64,000 bases of DNA from the NCBI RefSeq assembly GCF_025452195.1, contig NZ_CP104973.1:1550001-1614000 (forward strand), given 5' to 3'. Both the position numbers and the translations under genes were made by a program. Below are positions 30,767 to 44,997 of the stretch, in pieces (position 1 is the stretch's first letter; the number at the start of each line of letters is the position of its first letter). Source of the DNA: Phyllobacterium zundukense (GTDB lineage: Bacteria; Pseudomonadota; Alphaproteobacteria; Rhizobiales; Rhizobiaceae). The notes under the pieces are model-generated. The model saw only the letters and a program-made list of their open reading frames with translations. It was not told the DNA's origin and ran no database searches.

Positions 30767-32002
30767 TCAGAAATCCGCAGGCGGGTTCGCAGTGCGTCGA
30801 TCGAGCTTGATGAAGGGCCTCGGCACCACCTTGGCGCGCTTCATCAGCTTCTGATAACGAAGCTCGCGCATGGCATAGATCTCGACCCACAGATCGCCGG
30901 TTATGGTGTCGCCGTAGGGTCGCTCCAAACTGGCCAGTGCAATATTGCGCTTGGCCATCGGCGACCAAATCGCCGCGCTGACCAGTCCTATCTCGCGCTT
31001 GCCCTGGTGATAGACGATGGCGTGTTCGGCAGGGATATTCCCTTCGATTTCGAGCCCTATGAGGATGTGCTTCAGGCTGCCATTGGCTCGAGCCTGCTGG
31101 ATGGCACGCCGCCCGTTGAAGTGGGGCTTTTCCATATCGATCATGAATCCGAGGCCAATCTCATCCGGCATTCGCACCCGGTCCGCGCGGATGGCGTGCT
31201 CGGCGGTGATGAAATCGGAATTGGCGACGATCAAGCCTGCTTCGAGCCGTGCCCGGTTGAGTGCGGCATAGCCTATTGCGCGCAAGCCGCGCTGTGCTCC
31301 CGCTTGCCACAACCTATCCCAAAGACCGAGAGCCAGTTTCTGCTCTACGAACAGTTCATAGCCAAGATCGCCGGTAAAGCCCGTGCGCGAGATCGTAACT
31401 GCGCCGCCTTCGTGCGGAAATTCGGCGAGATCGAAGATCTTGAGCGCGGCGACATTTTCGAAGCCCGCATCGCGCAGCACCGCGAAGGACGCTGGCCCCT
31501 GCAGCGCCAGAGCCGCGATAGAACTGGTCTCCTCGATAATGCTGACGTCGAACCCGATGCCGCTATCGAGCAGCCAGGGTAAATGCCGTTCCTGGCTGCA
31601 AAGGCGAAACCGATCACTCGTCAGGCGGAAAAGGGTTCCGTCATCGAGCACGTGGCCTTCATCGTTGCACCAGGCTGTATAGTGAACTCTGCCGGGCTTC
31701 AACTTCCTGACATCGCGAAGGGTAACCCGGTTCAGGAATGCTTCGGCATCCGGTCCTTCAATGCGATATTTCACCATTGGCGAAATATCGAACAGCGCGG
31801 CCTGGCTGCGAATGGCAAAATATTCGAGTTCTTCGTCCCAAAGCGAAAGAGGCGCCTTGTAGCCGGCCCAATCGTACCACTCCTCCGTTTGCATCAAGGC
31901 CTCGATGCGCGGCTGAAACGGCGAGGCGATGCGCGGCGTGCGGAAATGGTCCTGTGAGGCGGCTCTCGCCATCAGCAGCTTTTTCGGGTCGCTGTGCTTC
32001 AT
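30767..32002 (-). CDS. GcvT-family aminomethyltransferase/demethylase
   Basis: The 411-residue product has the folate-binding GcvT fold: ALFDISPMVKYRIEGPDAEAFLNRVTL, YTAWCNDEGHVLDDGTLFRL, LALQGPASFAVL, and the later ISRTGFTGDLGYELFVE and GLRAIGYAALNRARLEAG. Relatives move methyl groups from glycine, dimethylglycine or DMSP to tetrahydrofolate. The start at 32002 (MKHSDPKKL) has AGGAAAGGA upstream and avoids overlap with the FAD gene. It follows two CrtI-like genes, suggesting demethylation of an N-methylated compound. Confidence 0.87.
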   Translation of the reverse strand: MKHSDPKKLLMARAASQDHFRTPRIASPFQPRIEALMQTEEWYDWAGYKAPLSLWDEELEYFAIRSQAALFDISPMVKYRIEGPDAEAFLNRVTLRDVRKLKPGRVHYTAWCNDEGHVLDDGTLFRLTSDRFRLCSQERHLPWLLDSGIGFDVSIIEETSSIAALALQGPASFAVLRDAGFENVAALKIFDLAEFPHEGGAVTISRTGFTGDLGYELFVEQKLALGLWDRLWQAGAQRGLRAIGYAALNRARLEAGLIVANSDFITAEHAIRADRVRMPDEIGLGFMIDMEKPHFNGRRAIQQARANGSLKHILIGLEIEGNIPAEHAIVYHQGKREIGLVSAAIWSPMAKRNIALASLERPYGDTITGDLWVEIYAMRELRYQKLMKRAKVVPRPFIKLDRRTANPPADF

Positions 32003-32006
32003 GACG

Positions 32007-33571
32007 TTATCCTTTCCTCGCAATGATGCGCCGCGCCGCGTTCAATCCCGGGACACCCGACACGCCGCCGCCCGGATGTGAGCCGGAACTTGCAAGATAA
32101 AGTCCGTCAATAGGGGTGTCATAGCCTTCAGCGCCGAAAACGGGACGGGACATCAACATCTGATCCGCCTGCAGTTCTCCGTGGTGCCAATGTCCACCTG
32201 GCATGCGGTAACGCTGTTCAATATCCAGCGGCGTAAGGAGTTCGGCGTGGAGGATCGATTTGCCGAGTCCTGGGGCGTAAGCCTCCAGCTGTGCGAGAAT
32301 TGCCTTCAGGAACTTCGGCTTGCCAGCGCTCCAACCCTCCTTCAATGCGTAGGGAGCATACTGAACGATAGCGGAGAGAGTGCATGCGCCATCGGGCGCA
32401 AGGGATGAGTCGAGCAGGCTCGGCAGGGTTATCTCCATGACCGGCTCGGGCGAGAATTCTCCGTACTTGGAGGGATTGAATGCGCGCTCCACGTGATTGG
32501 CGGAAGGTGCAATGACTAGCCGGCCATTCAATTCCGGTGTACGCAAGCCTGAAAATTGCGGAATTCTGTCCAAGGCCAGATGCAGTTTGGCGGCGTCGCC
32601 ATTAACCCGGATATTACTGATCCGTCTTACAAATCCTGTGTCGATCTCGCGGGTTCCGACAAGATTGAGAAACGTCGTGCGAGGACTGATGGCGGATACA
32701 ACCGTTTTCGCCCGTATTTCCTCACCACTCTCCAGCACGGCACCTACCGCCCGGCCATTCTCGACGATGATCCTGACGACGGGAACATTCGAGCGGATGG
32801 CCACGCCAGCTGCTCTGCGGCGAGTTCGATTGCCTTGACCACGGCGCCGGTGCCGCCGACGGGATGCATCTGCGCGCCGGGCTTGCCACCCATTTCGCCC
32901 GCAAGCCGGTAATAGAGCCCGAGCAGGGAGGTCGGGGACCGCGGTCCAAGATGGCTGCCAAGTGTGGCATCGAAAGCAAGAAGACCTTTCAACCGATCGT
33001 CTTCGAGATGTTCGTCCAGCACATCGGCGACGTTCACGAGCAGCATGCGCAAAAAATCGCGCATGTCCTCCTTGCCGAGCCGGCGCAGGGAGATGCCGGT
33101 CATGGCCAGCGCGGACGTTTCCGCAAAGGACATGCCACGCAAATCGGGAGGTCTACGCGCGAGCAGGGGCTTCAGGATCCCTGCATAGCGCAAGAGTTGA
33201 CTGCGCAGTCCGCTCCACGCCTCCTGTTCCGGCTTGGCAGCGCCGACGAGAGTTTCACCATAAGCGCCGATCAGGGTAAGTGGCGCACCTTCAGCTGAAA
33301 GCACGGTGGTCGGCATGAGACGGGATACGTCCAGTTTGAGGCCGTGCTTCTGCAACTCCAGAGACTTGATCACCTCGGGATGCAACCTGTTGATCAGGTG
33401 GGCTACCGGAGACGTCCGGAAACCTGGTGCGAATTCCTCGGTGCGCGCAGCACCGCCAGTTTCACCATTCGCTTCCAGCACGAGCACTTTTCTGCCGGTT
33501 TTGCCGAGAGTAGCGGCAGCAACGAGGCCATTGTGACCGCCACCAATGACTATCGCATCAAATGACGTCAT
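32007..33571 (-). pseudogene. CrtI-like FAD oxidoreductase, frameshifted near 32806
   Basis: The N-terminal part (33571 down to about 32808) has the dinucleotide fold FDAIVIGGGHNGLVAAATLGK and GETGGAARTEEFAPGF of phytoene-desaturase-like proteins. It breaks after KAIELAAEQL. The rest continues in another frame (VAIRSNVPVVRIIVENGRAVG) through to GLYLASSGSHPGGGVSGVPG. One missing base, restoring CCC at 32806-32807 on the plus strand, would join them as EQLGVAIRS to give about 520 residues, like the 539-residue neighbour. It overlaps that neighbour by 14 bases. The gene is otherwise intact, so a sequencing error is likely. Confidence 0.85.
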
Positions 33572-35177
33572 GGGCGGGACTCATATGTTTCGTGCCAAGT
33601 GACAGATCACGCAGGATTTCGGCTGCAGCGTTGCGTCCGGGTGCTCCCATGACGCCGCCGCCTGGATGTGTGGAAGAGCCGCACATGTAAAGGCCGCCGA
33701 CCGGCGAACGGTATTGCGCGTAGCCGGGGACAGGGCGGTTGAACAGCAGCTGATCGAAGGTCAGTTCGCCCTGGAAGATATTGCCTTCCGTCAGGCCAAC
33801 TTCCGCTTCGAGTTCGCGCGGGGTGCGCACTTCCATATGAATGATGCGATCGCGGAAACCGGGCGAATAATCGGCGATCTGCGAAATCACCGTCTCGCCG
33901 AAAGCATCGCGGTCAGCGTCTGTCCACTCCTTGCCTTCCACCTTGGGTGGGCAATATTGGACGAAGCAGCTCATGAAGTGCTTGCCGGGCGGCGCCATCG
34001 TCGGATCGAGCGTTGTTGGAATGACCATGTCGAGGAAAGGATCGGCCGACCAGCGCCCGGCCTTCCAGTCATCATATCCGCGTTCCATGCGTTCTACGCT
34101 GTCGGTGAAGTGCATGTCGCCGCGATAAACGGGGGAATCCTTTGGAAGTGCCGGAAACTCCGGCATGGAATCGAGCGCGATGTTCACCTTCCCGGACGAG
34201 CCGCGCATCTTGAAGTTCCTGACGCGTCGCAGGAAAATATCGGGAAGTTCCTTCTCCTCGACGAGTTTGAGGAATGTCCTTTTCACATCGGCGTTGGAGA
34301 TGACCATTTTTCCGGGTATTTCTTCACCGCCGACGAGCACGACACCCTTGGCGGATCCATTTTTGACGAGAACGTGGTCAACTTCGACGCCGGTGCGGAT
34401 CGTGCCGCCGGACGCCTCGAACGACGCGGCGAGCGCCTTGGTGACCGCACCCATGCCGCCGCGGGCGTAGCCCCATGCACCGACGGACCCGTCGACCTCG
34501 CCCATGTAGTGATGCAAGAGGACATAGGCCGTTCCCGGTGACATTGGCCCCAGCGCCGTGCCGATAATTCCGGACAGCGCAAAGTTCGCCTTGATCACGT
34601 CTGTCTCGAAATATTCATCGAGGAAGTCCGAGATCGACATCGTCCAAAAGCGCAATGTATCTGCCATTTCTGTTGCGCCGAGACCGGCAAATTTCTTGCC
34701 GAGATACATCAGTTCCGAGATATCGCGCGGGCGGAAGCTCGTTGGATCAGCGGCTGTGCGCATGAGCAACGGCTGTATGAACCGGCACTGTCTCGTCACG
34801 TCGCGCGCATATCGATCATAGGCTTCGGCATCGCGTGGCGAGAAACGCGCGAACTCCCGGCGGTGCGCGTGATGGTCGCGATAATTGGCCAGGTAGTCGC
34901 CGTCCCGGGTAAAGACGGCGCCACCTTCATAGGAGATGACCTGCAGGCCAAAGCGCGGCAGTTCCAGATCGCGCATGATCTCCGGCCGGAATAGCGAACA
35001 GACATAGGAGCAGTTCGAATAGAGGAACCCGGGGGTGAGGGACCGGCTCGTCGCGGCGCCGCCGATCCAGTCGTTCTTCTCCAGCACGAGCACGTCAAGT
35101 CCAGCACGCTGCAAATAGCACGCGTTGACCAATCCGTTATGTCCCGCGCCAATGACGATGGCGTCCCAACTTTTCAT
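33558..35177 (-). CDS. CrtI-like FAD-dependent oxidoreductase
   Basis: The 539-residue protein has the N-terminal FAD fold AIVIGAGHNGLVNACYL, the following loop WIGGAATSRSLTPGF, and the C-terminal FAD motif GLYMCGSSTHPGGGVMGAPG of the phytoene desaturase / retinol saturase-like group. Many members of this group next to amine genes are amine or sulphur-compound oxidases rather than carotenoid enzymes, and no carotenoid gene is nearby. It is the first gene of the operon divergent from the TetR gene and lies behind operator copy 35244-35261. Confidence 0.85.
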   Translation of the reverse strand: MKSWDAIVIGAGHNGLVNACYLQRAGLDVLVLEKNDWIGGAATSRSLTPGFLYSNCSYVCSLFRPEIMRDLELPRFGLQVISYEGGAVFTRDGDYLANYRDHHAHRREFARFSPRDAEAYDRYARDVTRQCRFIQPLLMRTAADPTSFRPRDISELMYLGKKFAGLGATEMADTLRFWTMSISDFLDEYFETDVIKANFALSGIIGTALGPMSPGTAYVLLHHYMGEVDGSVGAWGYARGGMGAVTKALAASFEASGGTIRTGVEVDHVLVKNGSAKGVVLVGGEEIPGKMVISNADVKRTFLKLVEEKELPDIFLRRVRNFKMRGSSGKVNIALDSMPEFPALPKDSPVYRGDMHFTDSVERMERGYDDWKAGRWSADPFLDMVIPTTLDPTMAPPGKHFMSCFVQYCPPKVEGKEWTDADRDAFGETVISQIADYSPGFRDRIIHMEVRTPRELEAEVGLTEGNIFQGELTFDQLLFNRPVPGYAQYRSPVGGLYMCGSSTHPGGGVMGAPGRNAAAEILRDLSLGTKHMSPAHDVI

Positions 35178-35243: not shown

Positions 35244-35261
35244 ATTGAATGAATGTTCAAC
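35244..35261. promoter_or_regulatory. BetI-like operator, copy 1
   Basis: ATTGAATG (35244-35251) is followed by the imperfect right arm TGTTCAAC, so TTGAA and TTCAA form the outer dyad around six bases. The left arm is identical to that in the copies at 41474 and 44265. It lies between the divergent FAD oxidoreductase and TetR genes, 67 bases before the former's ATG. Confidence 0.65.
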
Positions 35262-35457
35262 AAATATGATTGCGTTCTGGACGACTTGGGTTATTGTTGA
35301 GCTGGATTGTGGACGGTACGCCCTTGACGGAAGCAGAGATCATCGGGACCTGGAAACGATGCAGAGCGAGCTTGACAATGACGGCTTTCACTTCACTCAT
35401 CGGCATGAGGATGCCGGGCGTGATTTGCAGCCCGGCCGGATGCAGAAGAGGTCAGGC

Positions 35458-36129
35458 ATGAAGGTCACACCGATCAAGGAAAAGGACGCGGAGAAGCGCG
35501 GCCGAAAGGCTTCGAAGGAGACGAGGCAGCTGCAGCTTATCGAGGCGACGATCGATTCGCTCGCCAAGCGCGGCTATTCCGAGACGACCATGGCGGATGT
35601 GGCCGATGGTGCCGGTCTCTCACGCGGCATCGTCAATTTCCATTTCGAGAGCAAGGAAAAGTTGCTCGTCGCAACACTGCAATTCATGTCCGAGGAATAT
35701 TCCGTTCACTGGCGCAACGCGCTGGCCAAGGGCGGCGATGATCCTGCCCGGCAACTTGCCAGTGTTGTAGCTTCCGATTTCGATCGTGCCATCTGCAACA
35801 AGAGAAAGCTGGCCGCCTGGTGTGCCTTCTGGGGCGAGGCGAAATCCCGGCCGACCTATCAAGCTCTGTGCGGAGCGCGGGACGAGGCCTATCAGAACGT
35901 GATCATCGACATCTGCAAGAAGCTCAAGACCGACGGCGATTATTCGTTCGATGCCACTGCAACTGCACTTGGACTAAGCGCCATGCTTGAAGGTCTGTGG
36001 CTGCGTCTCATGATGGGAACCGAAGATGTGACGCGGGAATCGGCCCATTTTGCCGCCTGCGATTATCTGGCCTCCGTATTTCCAAAACACTTCTCAAGGG
36101 AAGCCTTGCCTGCAAAGAAAACCGCATGA
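35458..36129 (+). CDS. TetR-family regulator, BetI-like
   Basis: The 223-residue product has an N-terminal helix-turn-helix (LQLIEATIDSLAKRGYSETTMADVADGAGLSRGIVNFHFESKEKLL) and a long ligand-binding domain with A-W-C-A-F-W-G-E-A and L-S-A-M-L-E-G-L-W-L-R-L-M-M-G, both typical of BetI, the choline/betaine repressor. The start at 35458 has AGAGG upstream; the open frame to 35245 would run through the operator region. It precedes the PotD-like gene by 23 bases. The likely effector is a quaternary amine or polyamine. Confidence 0.88.
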   Translation: MKVTPIKEKDAEKRGRKASKETRQLQLIEATIDSLAKRGYSETTMADVADGAGLSRGIVNFHFESKEKLLVATLQFMSEEYSVHWRNALAKGGDDPARQLASVVASDFDRAICNKRKLAAWCAFWGEAKSRPTYQALCGARDEAYQNVIIDICKKLKTDGDYSFDATATALGLSAMLEGLWLRLMMGTEDVTRESAHFAACDYLASVFPKHFSREALPAKKTA

Positions 36130-36152
36130 ACGGTTAAAAAAGGGGAATGAGC

Positions 36153-37234
36153 ATGAAGAAATCGGGCCGCCATCTTGGCATCATACTTGGAGCCGCCGCC
36201 GCGCTGTCGGCTGCTGTCGCGACGATAGCCATCGCCGCAGACAAGGATCTGATCGTTTTCGACTGGGCCGGGTATGAGGAGCCATCGTTCCACCCCGGCT
36301 ATGTTGCCAAGAATGGTGAGTCTCCAACCTTCGCTTTTTTGGCGACGAGGATGAAGCCTTCGAGAAGGTGCGTTCCGGTTTCAAATCCGACCTTGGACAT
36401 CCATGCTCGCAAAGTGTGAAGAAGTGGCGGGAAGCCGGTCTGCTGCAACCATTGGATACGACGAAGATCACCGGCTGGAATGATCTGGCACCGAACATCA
36501 TGGCCATGAAAGATCTTGCGACTACAGCGGACGGCAAGGCATGGTTCATGCCTTGGGACTGGGGGAATACATCGCTGACCTATAACAGCGATAAGGTCGA
36601 CGCGAAGGACGTGCAATCGCTGAAAGCCTTTGCCGATCCGAAGTTCAAGGATCGCGTGTCTATCGGCGACAATGTCGACGATGCTTATGCTTTGGCGAGT
36701 CTCGCGATTGGGTTGAAAGACTGGACGCAGATGACTGACGAACAATTCAAGCAGGCGTCGGACTTCCTTCGTGAGGTCCATAAAAACGTACGGCTCTATT
36801 GGACAGATACCACCGAGATCGTACAGGCGATGGGCGGAGGCGAAGTCGATCTGGCCTGGGCATGGAATGATGCAGCGACGCAACTCAATCTTGCCGGCAC
36901 GCCTGCGGCGAGAAAAGCCGATACAGATGAAGGTAACTCCACTTGGGTTTGCGGTTATGTCCGCTTCAAGGATGCGCCCGGATCGGAAGCGAAGGCCTAT
37001 GATTTTCTCAACGCGCTCAATGATCCGGCGATCGCAACCTACATGGTGAACGATTGGGGATATGGCATGGCGAACGCCAAGGGCATGGGATCGGTCGATC
37101 CAAAACTGCTGGAGGAAAAAGGCTATGCCAACAACGACAAATCCGCCGAGAATACCTTGTTCCAGTCGCCGCTGCCCAATGAGTTGAAGGCGAAGATGAT
37201 CGCTGAATTCGAGAAGATCAAGGCGGGGTATTGA
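36153..37234 (+). pseudogene. PotD-like polyamine-type substrate-binding protein, frameshifted at 36335-36341
   Basis: The first part has signal peptide MKKSGRHLGIILGAAAALSA, then LIVFDWAGYEEPSFHPGYV and SPTFAF. The frame then goes wrong inside a T6 run (36335-36340). With seven T residues it continues FGDEDEAFEKVRSGFKSD, LGHPCSQSVKKWREAGLL and on to [15 protein letters not shown], a complete PotD-type protein of about 360 residues. The GGGGA ribosome site favours the second ATG, 36153. The permease and ATPase genes are at 38505-41397 on the other strand. Confidence 0.87.
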
Positions 37235-38541
37235 GCGCAGACGTTCCCTCGCGCGTTGTCGTCGTCGGCGCAGGCTTTACCGGCATGTCGGCGGCGAGCG
37301 AACTGCAACGCGCGGGCATAGACTTTGTCCTGCTCGAGGCGCGGGATAGGGTGGGCGGACGCGTCGAGTCGAAAGCGAACTGCCTTGGCGAGCTTTACGA
37401 TACGGGGGGCCAGTTCATCTGCGACGACATGCCCGAGATCATGGGGTTGGCGCGAACCCACGGCAAGACATTGGTCGAGACGCCTACACGCGGTGACACC
37501 ATCGCCCAACCGCCGCCGCACGGCAGGCATGATGCGGAAAAAGTTTCTGCAGGATCGATGGCTCTGCGCCGACGCCTGCGAAAACTGGATCCGAACGATC
37601 CCGCGCTGTCCGGTTTGGCCGTCCGCGCATGGGTCGAGAACCAACAGGCCGAACCCGCCGTAAAAATGCGGTTTCTCTCGTTGATCGAAGGTCTATGGTG
37701 CGTGCCGGCCGGGCTTGTTCCACTGTGGTTTATTGTCGATAACGACCGGCGCATCACAAACAAGGTCTCCGAACTGCAGTACTTTCTCAAGGAAACGATG
37801 CATTCGCTGGCCGCAGATATGGCGCGGTCGTTGGGGAAATCGCTGCTATTAAGTGAGCCCGTCGACCGTGTCGAGACGACTGCATCCGGTGTGATGGTAC
37901 GCACTATCCGCGAAGGCTATTCGGCCAACGAGGTCATCATTGCTGTACCGCCTGTAATGGCGCGCAAGATCATCTTCCATCCCTCCTTGCCAGACGCAAT
38001 AAACAACGCGCTTGCCTCGTGGAAGAGCGGCACAGTCGTCAAGTTGCTCATACGATATGCCGAACCTTTCTGGCGGAGGACGGGCCTCAGCGGCAGTGTC
38101 ATCTGGGTCGATCCACGCGGCCTCTACGCGTGCGATGCGAGCCATGATGACCAGCACCCGGCACTCGTGGTCTTCCTCGGGGGACCCATCGCCGTCGAGT
38201 GGTCAAGCCTTGGCGAAGAAGCGCTGAAGCAGGAGGTGCTGTCGAGACTGGTGGTGGCGCTTGGGTCAGAGGCTGGCACGCCGCTGGACATCCTGCTTCG
38301 TAATTGGATCGATGACACGTGGAGTGGTGGTGGCTATTCGGATATTGTCGAGGTCATGAACGCGATCGAAGCCGAAAATGCCTTGCGCCGCGGTTTTGCC
38401 GGCATCACCTTTGCCTCGTCGGAACTCTCGCCATCGTTTCCCGGCTATATCGAAGGAGCGATCATTGCCGGCCGCTTGGCGGTCCGGCCAATTATCGAGC
38501 GCCTTCAGTCGGCGAGTGCCACCAACGCGTCGGGGTCGTAG
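37231..38541 (+). CDS. Flavin-containing amine oxidase
   Basis: The 436-residue monoamine-oxidase-like flavoprotein has [49 protein letters not shown], and late I-T-F-A-S-S-E-L with F-P-G-Y-I-E-G-A-I near the C-terminus, the FAD-binding end. It starts at a TTG overlapping the PotD stop, so it is translationally coupled. It oxidises an amine, giving an aldehyde and peroxide. Its 3' end overlaps the convergent PotA gene by 37 bases. Confidence 0.86.
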
Positions 38542-39579
38542 GCGAGGCGGATCGGGGCGCCCACCGGAATATCGTCAGCGCCAAAATTATTTGTCTCCGT
38601 CACCGAGAGCGGTTTGTCAAAACCTGGTATCTCGATCACGAGATGGGTTATCTCACCGAAATAATGCCGGTCGATAACCTTGCCGGCCACCTCGTATTTA
38701 TCGGTCGCATCATCCCACAGGACGCGCAGGCGTTCGGGTCTGATCCCGAGCGTCGCACCTTTGCCATTCCTGACAAATGCCGCTGGCTTGTCGGTTTTCA
38801 CCCGTCCAAAACCTGGCGTATCCAATATCATCGATGCGCCATTCTCCTCGACAATCTCAGCCTTTACGAAATTCATGCCGCCGAGAAAGTCGGCGACCTG
38901 ACAGTTGACCGGCCGCTGGTAAATCTCTTTCGGCGATGCGACCTGCGCGATCTTCCCGCCGAACATGACCGCGATGCGATCGGACATGGCCAGCGCTTCA
39001 TATTGATCGTGGGTGACGAGAATGAACGTGATGCCGACGGCTTGTTGCAGCCGGCGCAATTCAACCTGCATCTGCTCGCGCAGCTTTCTTGTCCAGCGCT
39101 GAAAGCGGCTCGTCCAGGAGAAGCACCTTTGGGCGCATGACCAGCGCACGGGCGAGCGCAACACGCTGGCGCTGTCCACCAGACAGTTCGGTCGCACCGC
39201 GCTTCCCAAGCCCGGTCAGTGATACTTGCGACAGCGCTTCTTCGACGCGGCGCTTTTCTTCGTCTGCACCAAGGCGGAGCCGTTTCAGCCCGTAACACAC
39301 ATTCTGTTCGACATTGAGATGCGGAAAGATGGCGTAGCTTTGAAAGACCATGTTGGTCGGCCGCCGGTTGGCGGGAATCCCGTCCATCGGTTGCCCGTCG
39401 ACCGAGATCGATCCGCTTGTCGGCATGTCGAAGCCTGCGATCATACGGAGCAGCGTGGTCTTGCCGCAACCAGAGGGGCCAAGAAGCGAGAAGAACTCAC
39501 CCTCGCGGATCGTGAGTGACGTCTCATCCAGCGCCTTGAAGGCCCCGTAGCTGCGCGTCACGCGCGAAATCTCGATCAT
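38505..39579 (-). pseudogene. PotA-like ABC transporter ATP-binding protein, frameshifted near 39085
   Basis: The N-terminal part has Walker A GPSGCGKTT, NRRPTNMVFQSYAIFPHL, signature [17 protein letters not shown] and Walker [15 protein letters not shown], then leaves frame. Removing one T from TTT at 39085-39087 continues [32 protein letters not shown] and a C-terminal TOBE domain, totalling about 357 residues. The start is ATG 39579 (MIEISRVTRSYG). It is the third gene after the two permeases on this strand. Confidence 0.87.
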
Positions 39580-39586
39580 GGAGCGT

Positions 39587-40408
39587 TCAGGCAATCATGC
39601 CTCCCATATTCTGAGTGCGATTGCTTGCGCGGCGTCGCACGATTTCTGCGATGGTCAAAAGGAGAATCGAACCAGCGAGGAGCAGCGTACCGAGAGCGAG
39701 GACGCCCGGCAGCTTGGCGGCAAATCGCAACTGACCCCAGATATAGACAGGCAGAGTCGCTTCGGTTCCGGTCAGGAAGAATGCCATGATAAATTCATCG
39801 AGCGAGATGGTGAAGGAGACGAGCAGGCTTGAAATAATAGCAGGCGAAACCATGGGCAGCGTCACACGCCGGAACGTTCCGAAGGCGCTCTCGCCAAGGT
39901 CCGAGGAGGCTTCCTCAAGGCTCCTGTCGAACCCTTCGAAACCCGAGGTCAGGACGCTCAGCGAATAGGGAATGCAGATCAGTACATGGCCGAATACAAC
40001 CGTGATCAGCGACAGGCTAAGGCCGAGTTGCAGCATGACAAGCAGCATCGAGACTGCAACGATGATCTCTGGAAGGACCAGCGGCGCCATGAGAAGGCCA
40101 TTGATGGTGCGCCTGCCGGGGAAGCGATAGCGCGTTATGGCACGCGCGGCGCATATGCCGAATATCGTGCTCAATAGGGAGGCGGAGATGCCGACGAGCA
40201 GGCTGTTCCATGCCGCATCGGTCAGTGCCGGGGTGCGAGTCAGGTCGCCATACCATTTGAAGGTAAAACCGCTTAAGGGAAACTTCGGTATCGCCGATGT
40301 GTTGACCGAAAAGATCGGTAGGAAAATTACAGGCAAATAGAGGAAGATGACGTAAAGGAAGGCGTAGGTTTTTAGCCAGCTTGGCGCAAAGTTCCGCAAG
40401 GTCTTCAT
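39587..40408 (-). CDS. PotC-like ABC transporter permease
   Basis: The 273-residue permease has six helices and begins MKTLRNFAPSWLKTYAFLYVIF. It has the EAA loop SLEEASSDLGESAFGTFRRVTLPMVSPAI that docks with the ATPase. It is the second permease of a spermidine/putrescine-type importer. The start at 40408 overlaps the first permease stop (ATGA); the longer upstream frame is not coding. Confidence 0.92.
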   Translation of the reverse strand: MKTLRNFAPSWLKTYAFLYVIFLYLPVIFLPIFSVNTSAIPKFPLSGFTFKWYGDLTRTPALTDAAWNSLLVGISASLLSTIFGICAARAITRYRFPGRRTINGLLMAPLVLPEIIVAVSMLLVMLQLGLSLSLITVVFGHVLICIPYSLSVLTSGFEGFDRSLEEASSDLGESAFGTFRRVTLPMVSPAIISSLLVSFTISLDEFIMAFFLTGTEATLPVYIWGQLRFAAKLPGVLALGTLLLAGSILLLTIAEIVRRRASNRTQNMGGMIA

Positions 40409-41397
40409 CGGATTCGCCTCGCTGCCATGCGGATCACGAGAACGACAGAGGCGGCCATTGCCGTCACCACGGCCATGGTCGTCACCGAGAGCGCTGCGCC
40501 AAGTGGCCAGTTTGCGGCTTTGCCGAACTGAGCCTGGATAGCGTTGGCAATCATCACACCGTCTTTGCCGCCGACCAGACGCGGCGTCACGAAATCGCCG
40601 ACAGTCGGGATCATCACGATAAGCGTTGCAGATATGATCCCAGGCACCGACAGGGGTAAGGTAATTCGCAGGAACCGACGCAATGGCCCATCGCCAAGGT
40701 CGGTCGCGGCCTCGACAAGCGAACGGTCGATTTTTTCCAGCGAGATGAAGATCGGCAGTACGGCAAATGTTGCCCACGCGTGCGTCAACGTGATCACCAC
40801 TGCACTGGTGTTGTAAAGGAACGCGTCCGACGGACCGTTGGTGATCCCGAGGCCCATCAACGTCGCGTTGAGAACGCCATTATAGCCAAGGATGACTTTC
40901 CAGGACATCACGCGCAGGAGATAGCTTGTCCAGAACGGGATGGTGATCAGGAACAGCCAGACGCCTTTGTGCTCGCCGCCATGAAACGAGATGAAGAAAG
41001 CGATCGGGTAGGCAAGGACAACTGTAAAGAAGCTGACGAGGAGGGAAATCCACAGCGAGCGCATCAGAAGATCCCGGTAGATGGGATCGGTCAGCGCGAT
41101 GCGATAATTTTCGAGGGTGAATGTCCGGTCGATCGTCAGGTAGTTTTGCGTCCAGAAACTGTTCGCAATGACCAGAACAATTGGAATGACCAGGAAGATC
41201 ACTGCATAAATAAACGTCGGGCTTATCAGCCCGAGACCACGCGCAGCTTCTGATTGCAGAACAGGATTTCTTTGTTTTCGCACGACAGGCAGTGCGGCGA
41301 TCCCTTCCGCCGGTGCCGTCATTCGAACGGACCGCGCGCGTGATATGCCATCAGGTACCGGAGCATATTGTTCCCATTCATTCGATTGACGCGGCAC
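40405..41397 (-). CDS. PotB-like ABC transporter permease
   Basis: The 330-residue permease has six helices after a 55-residue cytoplasmic N-terminus, with TIPFWTSYLLRVMSWK and the EAA loop SLVEAATDLGDGPLRRFLRITLPLSVPGI. PotB/PotH class. The start may be GTG 41397 or ATG 41322; neither has a clear ribosome site. It heads the permease-permease-ATPase operon divergent from the aminotransferase gene, with an operator copy between them. Confidence 0.9.
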   Translation of the reverse strand: MPRQSNEWEQYAPVPDGISRARSVRMTAPAEGIAALPVVRKQRNPVLQSEAARGLGLISPTFIYAVIFLVIPIVLVIANSFWTQNYLTIDRTFTLENYRIALTDPIYRDLLMRSLWISLLVSFFTVVLAYPIAFFISFHGGEHKGVWLFLITIPFWTSYLLRVMSWKVILGYNGVLNATLMGLGITNGPSDAFLYNTSAVVITLTHAWATFAVLPIFISLEKIDRSLVEAATDLGDGPLRRFLRITLPLSVPGIISATLIVMIPTVGDFVTPRLVGGKDGVMIANAIQAQFGKAANWPLGAALSVTTMAVVTAMAASVVLVIRMAARRIR

Positions 41398-41473
41398 GTT
41401 CCCTGTCGTGCCTTCTTTCTTGCATCATGCGCCTATCTGTGGATTGAAATCAAGTGCTATTTCTGACATATTG

Positions 41474-41491
41474 ATTGAATGAACATTCAAT
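41474..41491. promoter_or_regulatory. BetI-like operator, copy 2
   Basis: Dyad ATTGAATG-AA-CATTCAAT with perfect 8-base arms, flanked by AT-rich sequence. It is identical over 18 bases to the copy at 44265-44282 read on the other strand. It sits midway between the divergent permease and aminotransferase genes and could control both. Confidence 0.75.
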
Positions 41492-41572
41492 ATAATGGGA
41501 GAAATCCTATTGATTTCCAATAATTGAGTGTAATTTTAAACGGGGAAAACCCGACACAAGTGTGAGGGAACT

Positions 41573-42994
41573 ATGGCGGCGGTGAAACAGATACGGGCAG
41601 CCGGGGTGGCAGCGGCGCTGACAAATCACGAGACGATCGATCTCGCCAAGCAGCATCTGGTTCAGCCATGGCCCTGTGCTGGAGAAATCGGCGCCGAAGC
41701 CAGGTCGCTGATTAGTGGCGGCGAGGGAATCTATATCACGGACGGCGAGGGCAAGCGGCTTATCGATGGGCCCGCAGGCATGTGGTGCGTCAACGTGGGG
41801 CACCGCCGTGAAGAGCTGGCGCGCGTCATGTACGACCAGGCCATGCAACTATCATACAACACCCCTTGGTATACGATGAACGAGCCATCGGCGGTGCTCG
41901 CAGCGCGTATCGCCGCCTATGCGCCTGGTGACCTCAATCACGTCTTTTTCACCACCGGCGGCTCGACAGCCGTCGAGAGCGCACTGCGTTTCATGCAGTT
42001 TTTCAACAATGCGCGGGGGCGGCACGAGAAAAAGCTGATCCTGTCGCGCGGCGGCGCCTATCATGGTTCTACCTATCTTTCGGCATCGTTGAACGGGCGT
42101 CCGCGGGATCGCGACTGGATGGATGGGGCAGACGAACTTGTCGTCAAATTGTCCTCTCCGGACGCATTTCGCCGCCCCGATGGGATGTGCATAGCCGCAT
42201 TCTCGGATATGCTGGTCGCCGAGTTCGAGGAGACGGTCCGCCGCGTGGGCGCCGATAAGATCGGTGCGTTCATTGGTGAGCCGGTCCAGGCTTCAGGCGG
42301 CGTCATTCTGCCGCCCGAAAACTATCTACCCCGCATCCGCAAGATATGCCGGGACAATGAAATACTGTTCATCGCTGACGAAGTGGTCACGGCCTTTGGC
42401 AGGCTCGGGCACGTCTTCGCTTCCGAGGATGTGTTCGATATCGATCCGGATATCATCACCTTCGCCAAGGGCGTCACCTCGGGCTATTTTCCGCTCGGCG
42501 GCATGGTCATTTCAGAGCGTCTTCTTGAAGAACTGCGCCGTTCAAATCACCCGACGGCGATGTATGCGCATGGACTGACTTACACCAGCCATCCCGTCGG
42601 CTGCGCCGTGGCGCTCACCAATCTCGACCTGCTCGAGGATGGCATCCTTGCTCATGCGCGGTCCGTTGCGCCCTATTTTCAGCAGCAATTGAAGACGCTT
42701 GAGGAACTACCCCTGGTTGGAGAGGTTCGCGGGATGGGCCTGATGGCCTGCGTCGAGTGCGTTGCCGACCGCGAGAGCAAGAATCCGCTGCAACTTGATA
42801 CGAATGTCGGAATGCGCATCGATACACATTGTCATCAGCTCGGCCTATTGGTGCGGCCGCTCATCAATATGTGCGTCATGTCTCCGCCGCTGGTTATTAC
42901 CCGCGAACAGATCGACGATATGGTGGGGATCTTGCGTGAAGGGATTTCTCGCACGATGGACGATCTACGGCGTGAGGGCGTCTGGCAAGGTTAA
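41573..42994 (+). CDS. Class III PLP-dependent aminotransferase
   Basis: The 473-residue protein shows the class III (omega-transaminase) pattern: G-I-Y-I-T-D-G-E-G-K-R-L-I-D-G-P-A-G-M-W, FFTTGGSTAVESALRFMQFF, GAYHGSTYLSASLNGR, GEPVQASGG, LFIADEVVTAFGR and the PLP lysine in TFAKGVTSGYFPLGG. Members transfer the terminal amine of polyamines, beta-alanine or similar compounds to pyruvate or 2-oxoglutarate. GAGGGA precedes the ATG. It is preceded by operator copy 2. Confidence 0.92.
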   Translation: MAAVKQIRAAGVAAALTNHETIDLAKQHLVQPWPCAGEIGAEARSLISGGEGIYITDGEGKRLIDGPAGMWCVNVGHRREELARVMYDQAMQLSYNTPWYTMNEPSAVLAARIAAYAPGDLNHVFFTTGGSTAVESALRFMQFFNNARGRHEKKLILSRGGAYHGSTYLSASLNGRPRDRDWMDGADELVVKLSSPDAFRRPDGMCIAAFSDMLVAEFEETVRRVGADKIGAFIGEPVQASGGVILPPENYLPRIRKICRDNEILFIADEVVTAFGRLGHVFASEDVFDIDPDIITFAKGVTSGYFPLGGMVISERLLEELRRSNHPTAMYAHGLTYTSHPVGCAVALTNLDLLEDGILAHARSVAPYFQQQLKTLEELPLVGEVRGMGLMACVECVADRESKNPLQLDTNVGMRIDTHCHQLGLLVRPLINMCVMSPPLVITREQIDDMVGILREGISRTMDDLRREGVWQG

Positions 42995-43010
42995 GCCGAC
43001 TAATGATGCG

Positions 43011-43030
43011 GCCCGGCGTTTCCGCCGGGC
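43011..43030. terminator. Rho-independent-type hairpin between convergent genes
   Basis: GCCCGGCG (43011-43018) pairs with CGCCGGGC (43023-43030) around a TTTC loop, followed by TTGAT. It ends the aminotransferase transcript and may also serve the convergent Rieske gene. The T-tract is short. Confidence 0.65.
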
Positions 43031-43051
43031 TTGATCGACAATACAGTCCTG

Positions 43052-44248
43052 TCAGATTTGTCCGGCGAGCTGCGCGTTCAGCAAGGGCACCTCGACCTCT
43101 GAAGGGGCCATTTCAACCTTTAGAACGGGCAGCACATTGCGCAGGTGGTCGTGGTGCGAACGGACACCATATTCGAGATCCGAGAGATAGAATCCCGAGA
43201 ACGATTTCGACAGCATCGATTCATTTGACCATTTCGTCAACTGAACATCTTCCGAGCTCGTCTCGCGATCGATGCGCGAGGCGAGGTAGCGGGCAGCCCG
43301 CTGCTGTCGAGTTTCATCCTTGTTGCGGAATACAGCGCCGCGCAACAGGGTCTCGCCTGTCGACAACGGAAACTCCTGGTAATACTGCGCGCCTTCAGGC
43401 GTAACCGAGATCACAGAATTCGGGAAAATCCCGTAATAGATCCACGCGTTGCGAAGGTTCTCGGGCAGATGCGTCGCCTCCGGTGCCAGATTGATATAGT
43501 TGCGCACACTCCAGCGCCGTCCCGCATGGGGATTATAGCTGGCGAAAGATCGCGACACGCCATTGATGAATGGCTCGTCGTAATAGGTCGAGCCGTAGAG
43601 GTCCTGGAGCGCCGGATGGGCCATTGCCACGTGGTATCCTTCATTGTCGACATCGCGCACCGACTTCCAGTTGACGGGCGATTTCTGCGTCCAGAAGCCG
43701 GCAGGCACCATATCCGCGATCTTGTAGTTCGCGATTTCCGCCCCGAATGGCTTCATCAACGTGGCAACTGATGGCTGGGCGCTCTTGAGAAAACGGATGA
43801 AGATAAAACCCATCCAGATTTCGAGTTCGAGTGGCAACAGACCGAATTCGTTTTTGTCCATCTCCGGGAAAGAGCGTGGACGCGCCGCGCCTCGCAGGGT
43901 GCCGTCGAGATTATATACCCAGCCATGGAAGGGACAGACCAGCGCGTTGTTGCATGTTCCCTTGTTATCGGTGACGACACGCGATCCCCGGTGACGGCAG
44001 ATATTGTGAAAGGCACGGATTTCGCTGTCCTTACCACGCACGATCAGGGCCCGCTCGCCTACGATATCAAGCGCGACATAGTCACCGACGTTGGGCACAT
44101 CGCAGACATGCCCGGCTATCTGCCAATGGCTTCGAAAGACGTATTCTTTCTCGAGCTCGAGCAAGGCCGGACTGCTGTAGCTCCAGGCCGGCAGTCCCCG
44201 GCGGTCCCAATTGTCCGGAATCGTCAAATCGCGTTGATTAACCTGCAT
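43052..44248 (-). CDS. Rieske non-haem iron oxygenase, alpha-subunit type
   Basis: The 398-residue protein has an N-terminal Rieske cluster motif (CRHRGSRV, then CPFHGWVYN) and a catalytic domain with NEGYHVAMAHPALQDLYG, giving the mononuclear iron histidines. This architecture covers ring hydroxylases and also N-demethylating or C-N-cleaving oxygenases of betaine, carnitine and stachydrine. Given the amine-related neighbours, the latter is more likely. The start at 44248 (MQVNQRDL) is 17 bases downstream of operator copy 3; the longer frame would run through that operator. No reductase partner is seen beside it. Confidence 0.9.
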   Translation of the reverse strand: MQVNQRDLTIPDNWDRRGLPAWSYSSPALLELEKEYVFRSHWQIAGHVCDVPNVGDYVALDIVGERALIVRGKDSEIRAFHNICRHRGSRVVTDNKGTCNNALVCPFHGWVYNLDGTLRGAARPRSFPEMDKNEFGLLPLELEIWMGFIFIRFLKSAQPSVATLMKPFGAEIANYKIADMVPAGFWTQKSPVNWKSVRDVDNEGYHVAMAHPALQDLYGSTYYDEPFINGVSRSFASYNPHAGRRWSVRNYINLAPEATHLPENLRNAWIYYGIFPNSVISVTPEGAQYYQEFPLSTGETLLRGAVFRNKDETRQQRAARYLASRIDRETSSEDVQLTKWSNESMLSKSFSGFYLSDLEYGVRSHHDHLRNVLPVLKVEMAPSEVEVPLLNAQLAGQI

Positions 44249-44264
44249 AAATCCGCTCTTACTT

Positions 44265-44282
44265 ATTGAATGTTCATTCAAT
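44265..44282. promoter_or_regulatory. BetI-like operator, copy 3
   Basis: ATTGAATG-TT-CATTCAAT, perfect 8-base arms, exactly the reverse complement of copy 2. It ends 17 bases before the Rieske oxygenase start, a position where a bound repressor would block transcription initiation. Confidence 0.75.
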
Positions 44283-44397: not shown

Positions 44398-44997
44398 CTA
44401 GTCCGGCCGCTTTGACAGAACCGTGTCAACAAGGCCCCACTCCCTGGCTTCCTCCGCGGTCATGAAGTGATCGCGATCCAGTGTCTTTTCCACATCCTCG
44501 AACGAGCGCCCGCAATGCTGCGCGTAAAGCCGGATCATTCGGGCCTTGGTTTGGCGCATTTCTTCCGCATGGATGAAGATGTCAGAGGCCTGTCCCTGAA
44601 AGCCGCCGAGTGGCTGATGCACATGAATACTTGAATTCGCCAATGCAGTGCGCTGACCGGGTTCACCAGCCATCAGGAGGAAAGAACCCATGGACCGCGC
44701 TGTCCCCATGCACAACGTTGCGACGGGGCATGTGATGAACTGCATCGTGTCATAGATCGCCAGACCGCTGGTAATGACACCGCCGGGCGAGTTTATATAC
44801 ATCGAAACCGGCTTCGTCGGGTTTTCCGATTCCAGAAACAGCAATTGCGCGCAGACGAGTGCCGCCATTCCGTCTTCGACCTCGCCATTCAGGAACACAA
44901 TACGTTCGCGCAGCAAGCGTGAGTAAATGTCGAATGATCGTTCGCCGCGGCTGGATTGTTCCACTACCATAGGGACGAGTTGCATCATGTCGCGCAT
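44398..44997 (-). CDS. clpP: ATP-dependent Clp protease proteolytic subunit
   Basis: The 199-residue protein aligns along its length with Clp[23 protein letters not shown], the active serine in [14 protein letters not shown], the histidine in [16 protein letters not shown], and the aspartate region [25 protein letters not shown] precedes the ATG at 44997. No clpX, tig or lon gene is adjacent, so this is likely one of several ClpP paralogues found in rhizobia. Confidence 0.93.

Follow-up and report, generated by a model that had tools for sequence, protein, structure and literature searches.

BetI of Escherichia coli and BetI1 of Ruegeria pomeroyi are TetR-family regulators with a PF13977 domain, and they are described with an AT-rich inverted repeat, with ATTGA/TCAAT arms, upstream of their targets. 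In the R. pomeroyi study (PMC12442346), the palindrome of the BetI1 footprint is a 14-bp one (ATTGACG*CGTCAAT), predicted -35 elements fall within the betI1 boxes, and the effector is choline. The same study reports that two-BetI systems exist in Alphaproteobacteria. BetI2, which also responds to choline, controls betTA; its boxes fail to match the betI box and have AAACTTGAAC in common, a sequence that includes TTGAA. In another study, E. coli BetI positioned at +1 of synthetic promoters is reported to repress them (PMC8667592). Here we describe a regulator of the same family, with the same domain and comparable sites, that is encoded within an amine cluster of Phyllobacterium zundukense. The cluster lies in a 64,000-nucleotide stretch of DNA (the window; G000:C5:1550001-1614000) on the largest contig of a 6.41-Mb, five-contig genome. 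Among the papers listed by our literature searches, none dealt with this amine cluster, and a search for a Rhizobiales BetI regulon (RegPrecise) found no paper either.

The window contains two perfect copies of an 18-bp dyad, ATTGAATG-N2-CATTCAAT, and a weaker, asymmetric third copy (operators 1 to 3; Table 1). The dyad has the consensus ATTGAAYG-N2-CATTCAAW, with TTGAA-N6-TTCAA arms. We consider it very likely from the sequence that the local TetR protein acts as a repressor that controls five units of an amine/betaine-type catabolic cluster through these three operators. An initial annotation had given the positions of all three sites, and they are correct. So is its statement that each site lies upstream of a cluster transcription unit: fad1/tetR, permease/aminotransferase, and the Rieske gene. 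The motif scan of the genome that it had named as a check found the exact dyad only twice in 6.41 Mb, both times inside the cluster, and the expectation under a first-order Markov model built from the window is 0.0036 copies. The number of sites in the window at ≤3 mismatches is mildly unusual (dinucleotide shuffles gave a mean of 0.34, and 1 shuffle in 100 reached at least three). The weight of the observation rests on the two exact copies, not on this count.

The sites are kept before the same genes in related loci. We examined 80 of 301 confirmed relatives carrying the TetR gene; the five closest named relatives by TetR protein are Phyllobacterium, with 86-98% identity. Of 65 loci usable for the aminotransferase gene, amt, 64 have a site at ≤3 mismatches before it, and the remaining locus has one at 4 mismatches (15 loci without a good amt match were left out). 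All 39 usable loci have such a site before the Rieske gene (41 were left out, 7 because the gene was at the edge and 34 because it was absent). Upstream of fad1, the generic dyad is matched at ≤3 mismatches in 27 of 72 usable loci and at ≤5 in 71 of them. With a wider search margin, the variant core TGAATGAAYGTTCAAC precedes fad1 in 72 of 72; the other eight loci lack the gene. Upstream of the permease gene perm1, 59 of 64 loci have a site at ≤4 mismatches, which is the amt site again. Within 300 bp of tetR, such sites are few (9 of 79) because a methyltransferase gene intervenes in most relatives. No site at ≤4 mismatches was present in 348 control regions upstream of fad2, gcvT, the solute-binding protein gene, the amine oxidase gene, and permease 2. 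The mean information content of the site and its flanks was 1.82 and 1.13 bits at amt, 1.63 and 0.99 bits at the Rieske gene, and 1.87 and 0.94 bits at fad1. A comparison of orthologous intergenic regions had also been suggested in the initial annotation, whose finding is correct and has gained support beyond what it could offer.

The dyad and the regulator also occur together. TetR orthologs are found in 6 of 20 genomes of the genus (E ≤ 1.2e-127; next best, 9e-17). The strict dyad RTTGAAYGNNCATTCAAW is found in exactly the same six, always on the TetR-bearing contig, and in none of the 14 others; the reversed control gave no hit. A looser form, TTGAAYGNNYRTTCAA, has three places in each of the five other TetR genomes, all on the tetR contig, and in P. 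zundukense it marks the three cluster sites plus two further places (L003 and L004). This perfect match in presence and absence argues against a different transcription factor, encoded elsewhere, as the reader of the dyad, with TetR a mere neighbor. Such factors could be sought among the 21 places in the P. zundukense genome that match the BetI model at E ≤ 0.001, of which this TetR is the best match, and binding of TetR to the dyad is itself a prediction. However, the 220 bp upstream of L017, the BetI-like paralog that comes next, contain no TTGA-N8-TCAA dyad. We regard a reader encoded elsewhere as very unlikely. One operator common to the amine-cluster units, most likely read by the TetR encoded among them, is what the initial annotation had proposed, and the genome and genus scans support it.

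The pairing extends beyond the genus. We searched 18 of the 80 genomes whole, picked because the cluster was partly missing or partial in the locus, and 17 of them had a site at ≤1 mismatch (reversed control, 0 in all). Of 42 such places we fetched 27, of which 10 fell within the original loci and 17 outside. Fifteen of the outside places adjoin a Rieske or perm1/amt gene; the exceptions are L156 and L167, and the latter adjoins no regulon gene. L156, which lies at the 5' end of an unrelated open reading frame (ORF) in one genome only, was not accepted as a regulon member, and neither was L224, which lies inside a long ORF of a TetR-less genome. At the level of the order, a TetR ortholog at E ≤ 1e-50 is present in 31 of 397 genomes, P. 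zundukense included. Ten wider regions around TetR relatives of 48-69% identity hold subsets of the same cluster genes. In seven of them (L260, L261, L262, L263, L264, L265, and L268) the cluster holds a site at ≤3 mismatches between gene matches, for example GTTGAATGAACATTCAAT before the Rieske gene in L261. The cluster occurs in Phyllobacterium, Mesorhizobium, Mycoplana, Pseudaminobacter, and other Hyphomicrobiales.

At ≤3 mismatches, the P. zundukense genome has 26 places, against 2 for a reversed-pattern control. They comprise the 3 cluster sites, L003 and L004 at 2 mismatches, and 21 places at 3 mismatches. L003:1501-1518 (G000:C5:2705225) and L004:1501-1518 (G000:C5:2930921) are perfect palindromes, AATTAATTGAACG-N2-CGTTCAATTAATT, between convergent ORFs, and were rejected as extra regulon members. 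L220, a similar palindrome from a different genome, resembles a terminator in its longer stem and T tail; L003 and L220 each adjoin a 438-aa ORF. Since similar TTGAACG-N2-CGTTCAA palindromes thus lie between convergent ORFs in the same genome, the cluster sites might be hairpins (terminators or REP-like elements) and not operators. However, each of the three cluster sites precedes a start codon, none is between convergent genes, and they are without the long stem and T tail of L220. The strict dyad is also tied to tetR in the genus. A hairpin function is therefore extremely unlikely, and we take the palindromes of L003, L004, and L220 to differ in kind from the cluster operators.

The initial annotation had likened the regulator to BetI. 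This holds for the domain type and the best family match: the protein passes the cut-offs for the helix-turn-helix domain PF00440 (50.2 versus 24) and the BetI-type C-terminal domain PF13977 (64.5 versus 27), and its best NCBIfam match is BetI. However, it fails the equivalog cut-off of TIGR03384 (118.2 versus 201.3 bits), narrowly misses PRK00767 (115 versus 118 bits), and falls in a clade of its own. No place in its genome reaches the TIGR03384 cut-off. In a tree of 53 rows, made by a quick method with no bootstrap, 33 rows form a separate group of TetR orthologs (SH-aLRT 98, branch length 2.07); E. coli BetI, the alphaproteobacterial BetIs, and two extra BetI copies all fall outside it. A true BetI is present in 57 of 99 relatives (59 places), and two genomes (G007 and G011) carry both it and this TetR. 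The recognition helix is SRGIVNFHF in 81 of 81 TetR orthologs and mostly SxALAHHYF in 31 BetIs. We considered residue 57 as the sole specificity code, because it is G here and A in 28 of 31 BetIs and initially fit the operator type. It was excluded because the BetIs of L194 and L200 have G together with ordinary BetI-type boxes; G is also found in E. coli BetI and in the BetI of L258. Among the family-scanned cluster genes (tetR, fad1, gcvT, part of the solute-binding protein gene, the amine oxidase gene, perm1, amt, and the Rieske gene) there was no choline dehydrogenase or betaine aldehyde dehydrogenase (betA, betB) and no choline transporter. To judge by its sequence, the regulator is a BetI-type paralog and not BetI.

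The operators point the same way. We examined 35 betI upstream regions, namely 30 of the 59 places and five second-copy or low-scoring BetIs. A TTGA-N8-TCAA dyad was present in 30 of 30 betI loci, with 54 of 60 half-sites reading NTTGAYTG. The TTGAA-N6-TTCAA form was found in none of these 30 and in 1 of the 35 overall. Among the five additional BetIs, L256 and L257 have the usual kind of dyad, L255 and L259 neither kind, and L258 has TTGAA-N6-TTCAA. L258 (G056:C7) is a true BetI over the equivalog cut-off, with ATTGAATGTGCGTTCAAA upstream and the helix SQGLAHHYF, and its operator type is like that of this TetR. Conversely, the ATTGA-N4-TCAAT-type betI box does not occur at the targets described here: the perfect sites are ATTGA-N8-TCAAT, unlike the 14-bp BetI1 palindrome, and operator 1 is TTGAA-N6-TTCAA. 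The recognition helix also differs from that of BetI, and the scanned targets are not bet genes. We considered an 8-2-8 geometry shared with BetI, but the repeat TTGATTGA, frequent at betI, also permits a 14-bp register. A shared geometry is not claimed because the palindrome of the BetI1 footprint is the 14-bp one. The earlier statement that BetI operators are of the TTGAA/TTCAA type holds as a matter of DNA vocabulary: between betI and betT of E. coli lies ATTGATTGGACGTTCAAT, which departs from the dyad at 2 positions. The usual betI box of related bacteria differs from the operator described here, with L258 as a counterexample.

These comparisons bear on whether the regulator could be BetI itself, or the second BetI of Alphaproteobacteria, with the cluster belonging to a choline-induced choline/betaine regulon. 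The C-terminal domain, the best family match, the barely missed PRK00767 cut-off, the E. coli ATTGATTGGACGTTCAAT site, and L258 would all suit this idea, as would the two-BetI systems known from PMC12442346. BetI2 as described there is likewise a second BetI-type regulator with sites other than the betI box and with TTGAA within AAACTTGAAC. L255 and L256, extra Hyphomicrobiales BetI copies on the BetI side of the tree, are possible BetI2-like candidates. The low TIGR03384 score, the separate long-branch group, the coexistence with a true BetI over the cut-off in G007 and G011, the single TTGAA-N6-TTCAA site among 35 betI regions, and the lack of bet enzymes among the family-scanned genes speak against it. 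We consider identity with BetI distinctly improbable.

We suggest the following mechanism for the local TetR. A TetR dimer would bind the 18-bp dyad at three places. Because fad1, fad2, and gcvT are closely packed or overlapping, they would form one operon, and the three operators would serve five units: fad1-fad2-gcvT; tetR-solute-binding protein-amine oxidase, which in many relatives begins with the methyltransferase gene; the ABC permease/ATPase operon; the aminotransferase gene; and the Rieske oxygenase gene. At amt, 60 of 65 loci have a -35/-10-like pair whose end lies 1-2 bp ahead of the dyad (41444-41472 in the window), so that the predicted start falls inside the operator. At the Rieske gene of the window, TTGCAA-18-TATATT ends at 44280, at the edge of the dyad. 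With the dyad at or just downstream of the putative -10 element at these two genes, bound TetR may block the start of transcription. This layout fits steric repression; that TetR represses rather than activates is our inference. The regulator is probably autoregulated. An inducer (an amine or betaine-like compound, or a catabolite) would release TetR and turn on uptake and breakdown together. Given what these enzyme families generally do, a methylated amine or betaine-like inducer is most likely.

Several observations weigh against this interpretation. Of the 26 places at ≤3 mismatches in the P. zundukense genome, 23 fall outside the cluster. Of the 21 outside places at 3 mismatches, 11 were fetched; ORFs of 100 codons or more cover 8 of these and leave 3 uncovered. 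Operator 1 alone is therefore unremarkable, and it gains weight because the variant core precedes fad1 in every usable locus. The looser TTGAAYGNNYRTTCAA matches 11 of the 14 TetR-less genomes of the genus (18 places, L224 and L220 among them), and its reversed control gave 7 hits in 20 genomes. The L156 site is exact. Three of the distant regions (L266, L267, and L269) contain fad1 and gcvT but no recognizable site. The upstream regions used as controls are lenient, because they often lie inside neighboring coding sequence, and the flanks at amt show conservation as well. Shared ancestry accounts for part of the conservation among Mesorhizobium and Phyllobacterium loci, and the five Phyllobacterium loci are the same contigs as five of the six TetR-bearing genus genomes. 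As for the promoters, the -10 position is not fixed at the Rieske gene across loci (28 of 46 at -8, 11 of 46 at +3), no fixed position was seen at perm1 or fad1, and no promoter was recognized at operator 1. The promoter matches are weak, with 0.5-0.6 expected by shuffling. With these points taken into account, the sequence data describe a well-supported new local TetR regulon.

The features of the cluster are listed in Table 1. The fad2 gene overlaps fad1. The solute-binding protein scores 70.6 against a cut-off of 582 with the PotD model. The Rieske protein shares the Rieske and ring-hydroxylase-type catalytic domains with the CntA/GbcA monooxygenases, and its best PDB matches are carnitine monooxygenase; however, it scores 140 bits with the GbcA model, far under the cut-off of 670. 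The broken frames of fad2, the solute-binding protein gene, and the ATPase gene are single open frames of about the expected size in the near-identical loci L024-L026 (521 aa for fad2 and 362 aa for the ATPase in L024-L026; 362 aa for the solute-binding protein in L024). Three frame breaks within about 7 kb hint that the assembly contains errors or that the cluster has recently decayed. Four Mesorhizobium loci (L065, L074, L092, and L100) have tetR, the amine oxidase gene, and other cluster pieces, without fad1 and without a dyad at ≤3 mismatches; their clusters look as if they were rearranged or being lost. In many relatives, an S-adenosylmethionine (SAM) methyltransferase gene lies between fad1 and tetR, as in Mycoplana and many Mesorhizobium loci. 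ORFs for it were found in L037 (9120-9926) and L041, of which the L037 one was identified. Its marker peptide EALWGEGY has exact matches in 23 of the 80 loci; the five Phyllobacterium loci, where the fad1-tetR gap is only about 280 bp, have none. Upstream of the Rieske operator and on the same strand is a gene for a ClpP-like protease (199 aa, by eye; 44398-44997).

Table 1. Putative operators and genes of the amine cluster (positions within the window)
Feature	Position	Strand	Basis and remarks
Operator 1	35244-35261	.	Asymmetric variant ATTGAATGAATGTTCAAC, 3 mismatches; divergent region fad1 (-)/tetR (+)
Operator 2	41474-41491	.	ATTGAATGAACATTCAAT, 0 mismatches; divergent region perm1 (-)/aminotransferase (+)
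Operator 3	44265-44282	.	ATTGAATGTTCATTCAAT, 0 mismatches, exact reverse complement of operator 2; 17 bp upstream of Rieske start codon
TetR-family regulator, BetI-type C-terminal domain, 223 aa; probable operator reader	35458-36129	+	PF00440, PF13977 above cut-off
fad1, FAD-dependent oxidoreductase (Amino_oxidase/phytoene-desaturase-like)	33558-35177	-	Family scan
fad2, second FAD oxidoreductase, frame broken in this assembly	32007-33571	-	ORFs by eye; both pieces have homologues in relatives
gcvT-like folate-dependent aminomethyl transferase	30767-32002	-	PF01571, PF08669; probable end of fad1 operon
ABC solute-binding protein, distantly PotD-like, downstream of tetR, frame broken	36153-37234	+	Part 36368-37231: PF13416
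Flavin amine oxidase (MAO-like)	37231-38541	+	PF01593; PDB matches include monoamine and putrescine oxidases
ABC transporter ATPase, frame broken	38505-39582	-	By eye and conservation, outside family scan
ABC permease 2	39587-40408	-	By eye and conservation in relatives' loci, outside family scan
ABC permease 1 (perm1)	40405-41322	-	PF00528
Class III aminotransferase (amt)	41573-42994	+	PF00202; NF005447/PRK07036 704 bits, over 618 cut-off
Rieske oxygenase alpha subunit (carnitine/glycine-betaine monooxygenase-like, not equivalog)	43052-44248	-	PF00355, PF00848

A broader reading, which we offer tentatively as somewhat short of an even chance, is that these TetR proteins form a separate BetI-type sensor family across several Hyphomicrobiales families, diverged from BetI in both DNA target and ligand. 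They would govern an undescribed methylated-amine/betaine pathway. It might comprise PotD-like uptake, Rieske N-demethylation, flavin amine oxidation, transamination, folate-dependent methyl transfer, and often a SAM methyltransferase. In this scenario, the operator would be kept distinct from the usual betI box so that cells with both regulators, such as G007 and G011, avoid cross-talk.

A regulator, a precise operator, and a gene list are now available for an amine-catabolic cluster of several Hyphomicrobiales. If binding by TetR is as proposed, a TetR-based reporter could help to find the substrate of the cluster. BetI and this TetR make a pair of related regulators that some cells carry together; their operators are related too, though mostly distinct. 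The main interest of the system is as an entry to an uncharacterized amine pathway and to the specificity of BetI relatives.

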